Source of the DNA: Vulcanimicrobiota bacterium | Lineage (GTDB): Bacteria; Vulcanimicrobiota; Vulcanimicrobiia; Vulcanimicrobiales; Vulcanimicrobiaceae | Assembly (NCBI GenBank): GCA_003168375.1 | Contig: PMSI01000003.1 | Span: 558,001-622,000, forward strand | Reading direction: 5' to 3' | Length of the DNA: 64,000 nt | Part shown: positions 54,452 through 63,360 of the stretch, one piece after another | Position numbering within the stretch: position 1 is the first letter of the stretch | How the letters are laid out: every line of letters begins with the position of its first letter | Notes under the pieces: model-generated | Seen by the model: only the letters and a program-made list of their open reading frames with translations | Told to the model about the DNA's origin: nothing | The model's database searches: none | Made by a program: the position numbers and the translations under genes

Positions 54452-54514
54452 GCGGTGGGGCGTGAGCGCGGAACCTTCAGCGTCCCGTGCGCCCGTCCCC
54501 CGGAGCCTTTCGCC

Positions 54515-54543
54515 TTGCCGAGGGACGAGGGCTGGCGTACAAT
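54515..54543 (+). promoter_or_regulatory. Sigma-70-like promoter of the cytochrome gene
   Basis: TTGCCG, 17 bases, TACAAT: close to consensus at exact spacing, 65 bases before the cytochrome start. It is the clearest promoter in the window. Confidence 0.65.
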
Positions 54544-54607
54544 GCACCACAGCCGGAAGCGCAGGCGGGCGTTGGCCCGCTGCGGCTCCCTGGGGTGGAG
54601 GTGCTCG

Positions 54608-56527
54608 ATGTCCATGACGCTTACCCCGCGTGCTCTGGCGGCGACCGCGTTTGCCGCTCTCGGGCTCGCGGGCCTCGCCGTCACCGGCGGCTGGATGCCG
54701 CCGCGCGCGACCGCCGCACCGGCCGCGACCGCCGCGATCGCGATCTCGCCCAACGTGCCGGGCGATCTCGCAACGGCGGCGCCCGCGGCGTCGCTCAACG
54801 ACGCGGCGACGTTCGCGTGGAACGAGTTCTTCGCGCTGAACTGGGCCGCCGCGCCCGGGAAGCGCGACACGGCGGCGACGAACTGCGCGTTCGGGCAGAC
54901 GGGTCCGGGCTGCAGCGGGCCGCTGGTGTGGCAGACGTTTCGCGGCAAAGCCGAGATCTTTCCGGGCCAGCCAAGCTTCACGTCGACGGTGAAACCGCCG
55001 GGCTACGATCCGTCGGATCCGCGCTTCGGCTACGATACGCCGCCGCGGTACGGCAACGTGTATCCGTTCGCGGTGCCGCAGTGCCCGACGACCAACGCAT
55101 CGCAGATCGTCGAGCCCGCCGCGTGGCTGAACCTCGATGAAACCGACGAGATCACGCTCGCCAACATGTTCGCGGGATCCGCGCCCTCCCCGCTGCCGAG
55201 CTCGGCGCCGTTCAACAGCGCGCCGCAGCTCGTCCGTTTTCTCGCTAAGGCGAACCACGTCGAGTACATGTACGTCGCGAAGAACAAGTGGTGGGGATTC
55301 CCCGACAACGATCCGGATCCGAACACCGGCTCGCCCGCACCGTTCGCCGGACCGCAGATGGAGACGATGGCCTACGTCGCCGCCAACCATCGCGACCCGG
55401 CGCCGGGCTCGTCGACGCTGATCAGCCTCCCGAACGGCTCGATCGAGATCAAAGCCGGCTGGCGCGTGCTGACGGCGGCGGAGGCCGCGTCGCACGCGTT
55501 CGTGCAGCAGCGCGCGCGATACTATGAGAACGCCAACAACCCGTGCTGGCTGCAAGCCACGTTCGGGCTCGTCGCGCTGCACATCATCCAAAAGACGCCG
55601 AGCGCGCCGTACTTCGTCTACGCGACGTTCGAGCAGAGCGACAACATCAAGACGGCCGCCGGAGTCCCGGTCGAGGACGTCAACGGCGGCGTCGTCGCGA
55701 TGCAGGCGTGCGCCGCGGGGCAAGCGTCACCGTGCCCGACGTCGCCGACCGAGCAGCTCGTGCAGCCGACGCCGCCCGCGCCGCCGCAGACGCCGGGGCC
55801 GTTCCCGGTGGTCAACCTGACGCCGGCGGCGTCCGCATACTGCACGCGGCCGCAAAAACGGATCTACTACCTGAACGAGCAGAGCGGCACGCCCACCGGC
55901 GGCTTCATCTGCGTCAACCGCCGCGACAACGACATCCCGACCCAGATTCAAAGCGTGAACGCGCAAGCACACGCGGTGCTCGCGACCTATCTCGCCGCGA
56001 AGCACATTACGAACTCGCCGTTCGCGCACTACAAGCTCGTCAACGTTCAGTACCAGCCGATCGACAAGCCCTACGCCGGTCCGTATCGCGCGGCCGGATC
56101 GAACCCGAACACCGGCGCGAACCCGGCGAGCTACCATCTCGCCAACATCGTCGTCGAGACGAACCGCTCGCTGCAGCGCTTCAGCGGCGGTCTGAGCCCC
56201 GGCATCTCGACCGACTACAACGCCTATCTCGGCATCTCACCGCCGCCGGTGATCCACCAGAACGTGTTTTACGCCGCGAACGGCTCGACCGGGCACGGCA
56301 CCGGCAACAACATGGGCGGCTGCATGGGCTGCCACGGGAGCCAGGGGCAGCTGCAGGGCGGCAACTTCAGCGTGATCTTCGCGCGCGGAGCGACCACCGC
56401 CAACGGTCCTGAGGTTCCGTCCAACCTGACGCCGATGACGATGACCGTCCTCCACGCGACGCGCGCGAACGCCGTGCCTCGCCACCCGACCCGCAACCGT
56501 CACCTCGTGACCGATCGAATCCGCTGA
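54608..56527 (+). CDS. Large secreted mono-haem cytochrome c-like protein
   Basis: 639 residues from the ATG at 54608 (GGAGG eight bases upstream). Signal peptide about 1-37. One haem c motif, CMGCH (572-576), near the C-terminus with surrounding Gly/Asn; no second CxxCH. The long N-terminal part has Trp-rich and Pro-rich stretches ([32 protein letters not shown]) and several Cys that may form disulfides. It looks like an exported redox protein whose large domain binds a substrate or partner. A second small gene with cytochrome-like spacing follows 34 bases later. Specific function unknown. Confidence 0.75.
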
Positions 56528-56561
56528 TTCGCCGCACTCTCTTCCGAGCCGGAGTCACTCG

Positions 56562-56849
56562 ATGAGCCACCATCCGCATGCCAAGCACGAAGGCGCCGCC
56601 GCGCCCGTGAGCTACGCTAAAGACATCAAGCCACTCTTCAGCACGAAGACCGACATCCCGCACATGGCGCAGCACGGCATCCACCTCGATCAGTACCAGT
56701 CGACCAGCGACAACGCGACGGATATCTACGGCCGTCTGACGCAGCCGCCGCACAGCCAGCAATTGATGCCGCCGGCACCCGAAGGCCCGTGGCCGGCCGC
56801 GAAGATCGCGCTCTTCAAAGCCTGGATGGACGGCGGCAAGCAGCCCTAG
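56562..56849 (+). CDS. Small cytochrome-like protein without a haem motif
   Basis: 95 residues. VSYAKDIKPLF, then HGIHLDQYQ, MPPAPEGPWP and IALFKAWMDGGKQP match the layout of small c-type (PSCyt-like) domains, where CxxCH normally follows DIKPLF; here that stretch is STKTDIPHM with no Cys at all. There is no signal peptide, but the N-terminus is His-rich (SHHPHAKHEG), which may bind metal. Probably co-transcribed with the mono-haem protein. Confidence 0.55.
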   Translation: MSHHPHAKHEGAAAPVSYAKDIKPLFSTKTDIPHMAQHGIHLDQYQSTSDNATDIYGRLTQPPHSQQLMPPAPEGPWPAAKIALFKAWMDGGKQP

Positions 56850-56897
56850 ATCTCGGCGAGCGGGCGGCGGAGCACGGCGCGCGGAACAGCAACCGCG

Positions 56898-57818
56898 ATG
56901 CGCGTCGTCAGCCTCTTGCCGTCCGCCACCGAGATTCTGTTCGCGATCGGCGCCGGCGACCACGTCGTCGGCGTTACGCACGAATGCGATTTCCCCGCTG
57001 AGGCGACGACGCGTCCCGCGCTGACGTCGACGCTGCTGCCCGCGGAGCTCGACGCCGCCGGCATCGACCGCCACGTTCGCGCGCGCATCCACAGCGGTTC
57101 CTCGCTCTACGGTCTCGACGAGGTCAAGCTCGCCGCGCTGGAACCCGATCTCATCGTGACGCAAGAGCTCTGCGTCGTGTGCGCGGTGTCATACGAGATC
57201 GTGGACCGCGCCGCAAAGCGTCTTCGGGGCGATCCTCGGGTGGTATCGCTCGAGCCGTCATCGCTCGAGGACGTCTTCGCAACGATCGCGTTCCTCGGCG
57301 ACCTGGTCGACGCGCACGACGGTGCCGCGCGGCTCCTCGCATCGCTGCGCGCCCGCATCGACGCGCTTCGAGCCGGTGTTCCAGCGGGACGGCGCCCGCG
57401 ATTACTGGTCCTCGAGTGGACCGATCCGCCGATGAGCGCCGGCCACTGGACACCGGGCTTGATCGACCTCGCGGGCGGCGTCCCCGTGCTCGGCAATCCT
57501 GGGGCGAACAGCCGCGTCATGACCTGGGACGAGATCACCGCCGCCGATCCGGACGTCACCGTCGTCGCCCCGTGCGGGTTCGACCTTGCGCGCACGCAGC
57601 GCGAGATTGCCGCGCTTCCACCCGACGCCGCACGCGCGTTCGCATCACTGCGCGCCCTGCGCGAAGGACGCGCCTACGCGATGGACGGCAACGCGTTCGT
57701 CAACCGCCCCGGCCCGCGCCTCGTCGACACGGCCGAGCTCTTCGCGGCAGCGCTCGCCGGCGACGTACCATCCGGCAGCGACGCGCTCGGGCGAGTCGAC
57801 CCTCGCCCGCCAGGCTAA
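56898..57818 (+). CDS. BtuF-like (cobalamin-type) periplasmic-binding-fold protein
   Basis: 306 residues. [32 protein letters not shown] (motif start [11 protein letters not shown]), then [21 protein letters not shown] and the C-terminal [20 protein letters not shown] are typical of BtuF/FepB-class binding proteins. No signal peptide or lipobox is seen, and no BtuC/BtuD genes are near, so it may be a cytoplasmic corrinoid- or haem-binding form rather than a transporter part. Confidence 0.85.
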
Positions 57819-58105
57819 GCGGTCCCGTCGAAGCGTTGCGCCGATTCCGTGATGACGCGGCGGGCGGTGGCGGCGTCGTCCCAACCCGTCGTGCTGGTCG
57901 CGAGCGTGCGCGGCACGAAGCCGTAGTCGCCGGGATAGAAGATCGGGGAGTGGAGCGCGCGGTCGAGCCGGAAGATGTCGAGCGACTTGTCGTATTCGTA
58001 CTTGTTCCGCGAGCCGCTGGGGATCTCGACGATCACGTTGATCTCGTCCGGCGCGCGCTCGCCGAGCGGAAGATTCAGCCGGTTCTGGCGGGTCGCGAGG
58101 CTCAC
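57815..58105 (-). pseudogene. ppa: Inorganic pyrophosphatase with internal deletion
   Basis: 96 residues in one frame from a GTG at 58105. Residues 20-70 are the canonical family I PPase N-terminus ([29 protein letters not shown]). Residues 74-93 ([19 protein letters not shown]) match the usual C-terminus. The middle, about 90-100 residues including the catalytic Asp cluster (DPLD and beyond), is absent, with the frame kept. Normal length is about 165-180 residues. Unless it is an assembly artefact, the product cannot hydrolyse PPi. It starts 21 bases from yggU, divergent. Confidence 0.8.
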
Positions 58106-58126: not shown

Positions 58127-58405
58127 GTGAGCGCACGCCTGGAGATCGTCGCCAAACCGGGCGCCCGGGTCGCCGGGATTTCGCGGCGCGCCGGCGACGT
58201 CGTCGTCGCAGTCCGCGAACGTGCCGTCGACGGCAAGGCGAACGACGCGATCGTCCAGGCCGTCGCCGGCTGGCTCGACGTGGCGCCCGGCCGGGTCCAC
58301 ATTCTGCACGGCGGCCGCGGACGGCGCAAGCTCGTCGAGATCCAGGGCATCGACGACGACGCGATCCGTGCGCGCGTCGAAGCTCTACCGGCGTCCGGTC
58401 CCTGA
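58127..58405 (+). CDS. YggU / DUF167 family protein
   Basis: 92 residues from the GTG at 58127. The DUF167 core is clear: [30 protein letters not shown] (G-KAN-A motif) and [10 protein letters not shown]. Small cytoplasmic proteins of unknown function, often near YggT. Here it faces the deleted ppa gene, only 21 bases between starts. Confidence 0.88.
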
Positions 58406-61739: not shown

Positions 61740-63360
61740 TCCCCATATGGACGAGCTTTTCTACCCCAAAACGTCGGTTGCCCTGTTTGCGGGGCACGGC
61801 CCGGCGATGTGATTCGGGGTTTGGACCCCATTGGCGACGTGAGAGACGGGCTTAGGCGACACCGAGCACTGAAAAACCCGATTGGATGCTCATAAGGACA
61901 CAACTCTCCCGTCGTTTTCCCGGCGCGCACCGTGGCCGGGGTGCTCATGTTGCCGTTGCCATCGGGGGCGATCGCAAAGCGGCAATGCGCTGCATGATCG
62001 CCGCGACCAACTGCCGTGGGATCGACACCTCGGCCATCTGAAAAGCGACGTAGCGACCGTGACTGACAACCCTCGCGCCGATCTTGATCAGCTTCTCGCG
62101 AAGTCTCGTCAGCGACCAATCTGTAATCGCTTCGGGAGTCGCGAGCGCGCGCAGAAAGTTCCCGAGATTGTAGGCGAGCGCGTGAAGCTGCAAGCGCACC
62201 GCGTTGGCGTTGAAGGAGCGACACGAGAGTCGTGTCCACTTGATCGCACCTTTGCCTTCCTTGATCCATTGCTCAGCCGTCCCGCGCTTGTTGTAAAACC
62301 CGACGATATTCTTCGACGAGTAGCCCAAGTTGGCGATGATGAATCCAACGCGCGGGAATAGCTCTCCGAGATGCCACTCCACTTTGGCGACAACCCGACG
62401 CGGATGGGACCAACTCGCCGCTTTGTAGCGAAAGCTCTTATGGAAACGTTGTACGTGATGGGGCGGTCGCCCAACGGGTCGCTTGAGAAGATGCCCGATT
62501 CGCGCTTGAAGAATCTGATTTGCAGGAAGGCGGATCGCATATTCGATGCCCTGTGATTCGAGGTACTCGTACATGTTAGGCTGAGCGAAGGCGGCATCGC
62601 CACGGAAGGCGATGCGCTCGACTGCGCCCTGATAGCGTGCAACGATCGGCTTGAGAAGGTCTTCCCACCCATCGGCACTGTGAACGTTGCCCGGCCTGAG
62701 CGCGCATCGTTCCAGGTCCCCAAATTGGTTGAACACGAAGAGCGGGTGGTAGCAGGTGCAACCGAAATGTCCGTTCCACACGCTCTTCTCTTGATCGCCA
62801 TGCGTTGGGCTGACGCTCGAATCCATATCAAGCACGACGCGCTTGCATGAACGGCGCTTCGCAACCTGGTCGATCCAATGACCGGAGAGATCGGTGAGCG
62901 TTGCGAGGTTTTCAGGCTTTGCCAGCCAGTTTGTTTCGAACCGCCCCATCTGACTTGGCGACGCGCCCGAGCCTTTCGCTGCTTTGCCGCCGATGATCCA
63001 GCGCATGGCGGGGTCATGCCGCAGGCGCAAAGCATCGTTCACGTCTTCGTATCCCGCAAGTCTGCCGAAAACGGATTGACGGAACATGCCGACGAGCGCA
63101 TGACGACCGTTCTTCCCCGTGCGCGCATCGGCGAGAAGGTCACCGGCCCTTGGAGTCAATCCAAGTGCATCATCGAGTTCGCGATACGCGAGCAGACCGG
63201 CATCCGACGTAACGACCGATCCACGAAACTGAAGCATCACACGACGGTCGAAGTCGGGCCTGAGAATACCATCCTGAGCTTCACCCGCCGGGTTCGTCAC
63301 TTTGGCGTCACATCATCAGCGCAAATCACTTGCCAATTATAGCAAGATCCTGCGCGGCCG
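61740..63360 (-). mobile_element. IS1380-type insertion sequence, full length
   Basis: It comprises the transposase gene (61945-63300), a left end with TTGCTATAATTGGCAAGTGA near 63340-63360, and about 200 bases of non-coding right end reaching CATATGGGG near 61741-61750. Both ends recur in the shorter element at 63390-64000, which defines them. Exact termini and target duplications could not be fixed by eye. GC is clearly lower than the chromosome. Confidence 0.75.
61945..63300 (-). CDS. IS1380 family transposase
   Basis: 451 residues, GTG start. DDE-type nuclease fold: first Asp in VVLDMDSSVSPTHGDQ (D158/D160), second in AFRGDAAFA (D234-235) and Glu in EQWIKEGKG (E343/E347), with the IS1380 features YHPLFVFNQFGDLE and NKRGTAEQWIKEGK. 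No frameshift or stop, so the protein is probably active. The internally deleted copy next to it keeps the same first 45 and last 78 residues. Confidence 0.92.
   Translation of the reverse strand: MTNPAGEAQDGILRPDFDRRVMLQFRGSVVTSDAGLLAYRELDDALGLTPRAGDLLADARTGKNGRHALVGMFRQSVFGRLAGYEDVNDALRLRHDPAMRWIIGGKAAKGSGASPSQMGRFETNWLAKPENLATLTDLSGHWIDQVAKRRSCKRVVLDMDSSVSPTHGDQEKSVWNGHFGCTCYHPLFVFNQFGDLERCALRPGNVHSADGWEDLLKPIVARYQGAVERIAFRGDAAFAQPNMYEYLESQGIEYAIRLPANQILQARIGHLLKRPVGRPPHHVQRFHKSFRYKAASWSHPRRVVAKVEWHLGELFPRVGFIIANLGYSSKNIVGFYNKRGTAEQWIKEGKGAIKWTRLSCRSFNANAVRLQLHALAYNLGNFLRALATPEAITDWSLTRLREKLIKIGARVVSHGRYVAFQMAEVSIPRQLVAAIMQRIAALRSPPMATAT

Follow-up and report, generated by a model that had tools for sequence, protein, structure and literature searches.

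The locus described here raises the question of what a gene for inorganic pyrophosphatase (PPase) represents when its middle is missing and its start, stop and frame are kept: a short protein with a role of its own, a fault of the assembly, or a gene that has simply been broken. It lies in the window, a stretch of 64,000 nucleotides from a Vulcanimicrobiota genome (G000) that is assembled in 7 contigs at 97.12% completeness and 0.04% estimated contamination. The positions of the features discussed are collected in the table below.

Features at the ppa locus, with positions in the window
Feature	Position	Strand	Remark
Insert between icd and btuF, 2.4 kb	54502..56892	plus	two ORFs; none at this spot in the congeners compared
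Insert ORF 1, 639 aa	54608..56527	plus	CMGCH haem-c-like motif at the end
Insert ORF 2, 95 aa	56562..56849	plus	no Pfam match
btuF-like periplasmic binding protein (PF01497)	56898..57818	plus	convergent with ppa; equally diverged from G004 and from other congeners
Remnant ppa ORF, 96 aa	57815..58105	minus	GTG start 58105, TAG stop 57815; PF00719 positions 1-46
C-terminal 27 codons of ppa	57818..57898	minus	synonymous sites strongly diverged from G004
Deletion junction	57898..57899	minus	lacks 249 bp present in seven full-length relatives; microhomology of 0-1 nt
N-terminal 69 codons of ppa	57899..58105	minus	normal PPase, 100% protein identity to sister G004
DUF167/YggU gene	58127..58405	plus	divergent from ppa; adjoins btuF directly in G001

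The shortened frame and the lost block

The remnant belongs to the family I inorganic pyrophosphatases (PF00719), with the N-terminal 69 residues fused to the C-terminal 27 in an unbroken frame; the full domain is absent from the product, and the Pfam profile matches over positions 1-46 of 153 only (58.9 bits, E 6.8e-16). Its start codon was placed by homology in an open frame that extends upstream to 58309, and a promoter scan found nothing. The protein of the sister genome G004, a MAG from uncultured WPS-2/Eremiobacterota (public contig CALEOJ010000067), agrees with the remnant at 100% of the residues ahead of the junction and at 85% of those beyond it. This 69-residue identity to the sister's full-length gene, together with the same gene neighbourhood, establishes common descent of the remnant with the family I soluble PPases. 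Relative to the genes of seven full-length relatives (the congeners G003, G004, G005, G006, G007 and G010, and G028 from another genus), exactly 249 bp, or 83 codons, are missing. The earlier note, which had described a PPase N-terminus joined to a C-terminus with the Asp cluster missing and the frame intact, is thus borne out by the 96-codon frame and the profile match, and its figure of 90-100 missing residues was slightly high.

In the sister genome the lost block reads LDGDPLDVL...RMIDDGKEDDKVLAV...ETYKLLEGK, and it holds the cluster of Asp-65, Asp-67 and Asp-70 together with the counterparts of Asp-97, Asp-102, Lys-104, Tyr-141 and Lys-142, in the numbering of the E. coli enzyme. The Asp cluster (D-G/D-D-P-x-D), the later Asp and Lys residues and the Tyr-Lys residues are all present in the aligned proteins of G004, G006 and G007 and missing from the 96-residue product. 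The N-terminal 69 codons retain the residues that correspond to Glu20, Lys29, Glu31, Arg43 and Tyr55 of the E. coli enzyme, and the residues left in the remnant form only part of the phosphate-binding set. With the cluster, the later Asp and Lys residues and the Tyr-Lys pair gone, the product would not be a working PPase; judged by the residues known in the E. coli enzyme, its PPi hydrolysis has very probably been lost. The structure prediction by AlphaFold2 gave a pLDDT of 42 for the remnant and of 36 for the full-length control from the sister, both from the same shallow eight-sequence alignment; since the control itself reached only 36, owing to too little alignment depth, the folding comparison is uninformative.

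Pyrophosphatases in the genome and in its relatives

The missing 249 bp were not found elsewhere in the genome, where the profile search returned a single PF00719 match, and the 97%-complete assembly yielded no second soluble PPase, neither another PF00719 match nor a family II DHHA2 match. The absent 3% might still harbour a full-length soluble PPase. What the genome does encode is a single membrane pyrophosphatase (G000:C6:1146288-1148366, 885.9 bits) without internal stops, in which the catalytic motif DNVGDNVGDCAGM and the motif GNTTKAVTKG were read by eye; the latter we take to be the signature of potassium-independent proton pumps, and the enzyme is classed here as an intact membrane H+-PPase. 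While its presence is observed, its compensation for the loss of the soluble enzyme is probable. The earlier note had advised a search for a second or membrane PPase, and had named a strain-specific deletion beside an intact paralogue as the finding that would speak against its reading; the sister species does lack the deletion, and there is no intact soluble paralogue, the membrane PPase standing in its stead.

Among 60 relatives, a membrane PPase occurs in 57 and a soluble PPase in 33, and across the class a soluble PPase was found in 66 of 117 genomes. The short form that the note had suggested looking for in relatives did not turn up again: no other of the 117 class genomes searched shows a profile match confined to positions 1-46, and a conserved short form is thereby ruled out. 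In these genomes PF00719 has two other partial matches, which take in the larger part of the domain, at positions 1-123 and 27-153. Three loci (L109, L114 and L121) that at first looked like matches to the short query over its entire length prove to be full-length PPases. A second, more divergent type of family I PPase, scoring about 120 bits to PF00719, occurs in some members of the family, at times alongside the common type (for example at L030, G008:C80:127397-127867, and at G007:C139:3737-4207).

At the syntenic locus of two congeners the whole gene is gone: in G001 the btuF-like gene directly abuts the DUF167 gene, and in G008 btuF adjoins a histidine-phosphatase gene. Loss of the soluble PPase is recurrent in this clade, and the absence of the whole ppa from the same locus in both congeners indicates that the soluble enzyme is dispensable here. 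The G001 assembly (86% complete, 7 contigs; syntenic locus L198) has neither a PF00719 nor a PF03030 match, which probably reflects missing sequence.

The junction and the origin of the deletion

At the junction CTCGCG is joined to ACCAGC with 0-1 nt shared, and direct-repeat slippage is ruled out, as the junction has no repeat. The two sides of the gene differ in their divergence from the sister genome, with 2 of 207 nucleotides changed on the 5′ side and 11 of 69 on the 3′ side; at fourfold sites the counts are 1 of 38 against 6 of 13 (p = 0.0006), which is the lowest value among the 28 genome pairs tested, the remaining pairs all being at least 0.041. A maximum-chi-square analysis placed the change-point at 57890/57891, 8 bp off the junction, and 0 of 500 permutations were as strong; because permuting the sites takes no account of differences in their rates, the fourfold-site test is given more weight. 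Beyond ppa, the dS of btuF to the sister is 0.66, equal to that against other congeners, and that of the flanking genes (icd, the ppa 5′ part, ferritin, an aldehyde-dehydrogenase-like gene and histidine phosphatase) is 0.04-0.43. All of these recombination signals are read from one sister genome, in which btuF is split over two contigs, and, within ppa, from just 23-27 codons 3′ of the junction.

Several other features of the neighbourhood were recorded. The stop codons of ppa and the convergent btuF-like gene overlap (57815-57818). A relative of the 639-residue insert ORF, with 47% identity, is found in the sister genome on the opposite side of icd. Farther along the window there is an intact-looking transposase ORF on the minus strand (61945-63300; PF13701, DDE group 1), and several partial matches to this stretch are found in the sister.

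Two origins of the deletion could be considered, both of which fit a loss of function. In the one, which we put forward tentatively and at slightly below even chances, the deletion arose together with an incoming foreign segment: a segment comprising the haem-protein insert, btuF and the ppa 3′ end would have recombined into the chromosome, and its right end would have been joined non-homologously within ppa, removing the 249 bp. The divergence step at the junction, the diverged btuF and the genome-specific insert would all be accounted for by such a single recombination event. The recipient of the foreign tract could be either G000 or G004, since between btuF and ppa the latter has 514 bp peculiar to it and its btuF is split. 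In the other, a possible but less favoured origin, a spontaneous deletion by slippage or end-joining took place independently of the adjacent divergence step. A loss of 249 bp requires no foreign DNA, and the step may be a separate event or a change in the sister lineage, as the latter's own stretch between btuF and ppa would allow; yet the change-point and the junction are no more than 8 bp apart, and it is on the side of higher divergence that btuF and the genome-specific insert are situated.

Standing of the remnant and comparison with known systems

Based on these findings, we propose that the remnant is a loss-of-function allele of the only soluble PPase gene, from which 83 codons were cut by an illegitimate join and whose loss the membrane H+-PPase lets the cell tolerate; we hold this to be likely. 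Upon the join, the metal-binding Asp cluster would be deleted with the rest of the block and the product could no longer hydrolyse PPi, and the intact membrane enzyme, which is observed, would remove PPi in its place. An assembly or population artefact, in which the organism has the full ppa and the consensus stems from a minority deletion or a mis-join, is unlikely. The source is a draft in several contigs, the sister carries an intact ppa, and joining two strains into a chimera would likewise place the junction at a divergence step; but the deletion is clean and exactly codon-preserving, the ORFs beside the remnant are open and free of stops, no direct repeat able to drive a collapse is found at the junction, and the estimated contamination is very low. 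It is very improbable that the short protein has been kept because it serves some non-catalytic purpose. Frame, start and stop are all preserved and the N-terminal part is identical to the sister's, but with merely 2 nucleotide changes in the 5′ part this identity is uninformative on constraint after the deletion, and selection on so nearly identical a sequence is not measurable. The loss of the active-site residues, the lack of any other short form in the class and the existence of congeners without ppa speak against such a role, and it is scarcely credible that the 96-residue product is translated and kept to bind, for example, PPi, a metal or a partner protein, with PPi removed wholly by the proton-pumping enzyme.

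Therefore, the ppa remnant is most likely a real but ordinary broken gene, a fresh case of a well-known type of event. The earlier note's view of a defined deletion rather than random decay holds insofar as the deletion is internal, preserves the frame and leaves start and stop in place. Anything beyond ordinary loss is unsupported, given that the short form occurs nowhere else, that the junction is non-homologous, that congeners have lost the whole gene, and that any random deletion has a one in three chance of an in-frame outcome, which makes the intact frame weak evidence for anything special.

The locus offers a snapshot of the loss of soluble PPase, intact in most congeners, broken here and gone in others, in a phylum where the membrane proton-pumping PPase is nearly universal. 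Soluble PPase has been called essential in E. coli; the present case suggests that the enzyme is dispensable in this clade, in agreement with other organisms that have a membrane PPase.

Compared with the family I soluble PPase of the clade, the remnant matches the normal enzyme in its N-terminal 69 and C-terminal 27 residues, and differs in that the 83 central residues with most of the active site are gone, so that it would be inactive. As regards its origin, homology-facilitated illegitimate recombination has been described in Acinetobacter baylyi, Streptococcus pneumoniae and Pseudomonas stutzeri. The apparent foreign tract, the non-homologous join and the deletion of recipient sequence at one end resemble that process; its junctions, however, usually show 3-10 bp of microhomology and deletions of about 1 kb (PMC3240628), as against 0-1 nt and 249 bp at the ppa junction. 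A membrane PPase in the absence of a soluble one is also what Clostridium thermocellum and Thermoanaerobacterium saccharolyticum live with (PMC7657619). In its gene content the present genome is alike, the membrane H+-PPase being the sole PPase detected; it differs in that the broken soluble gene is still there.
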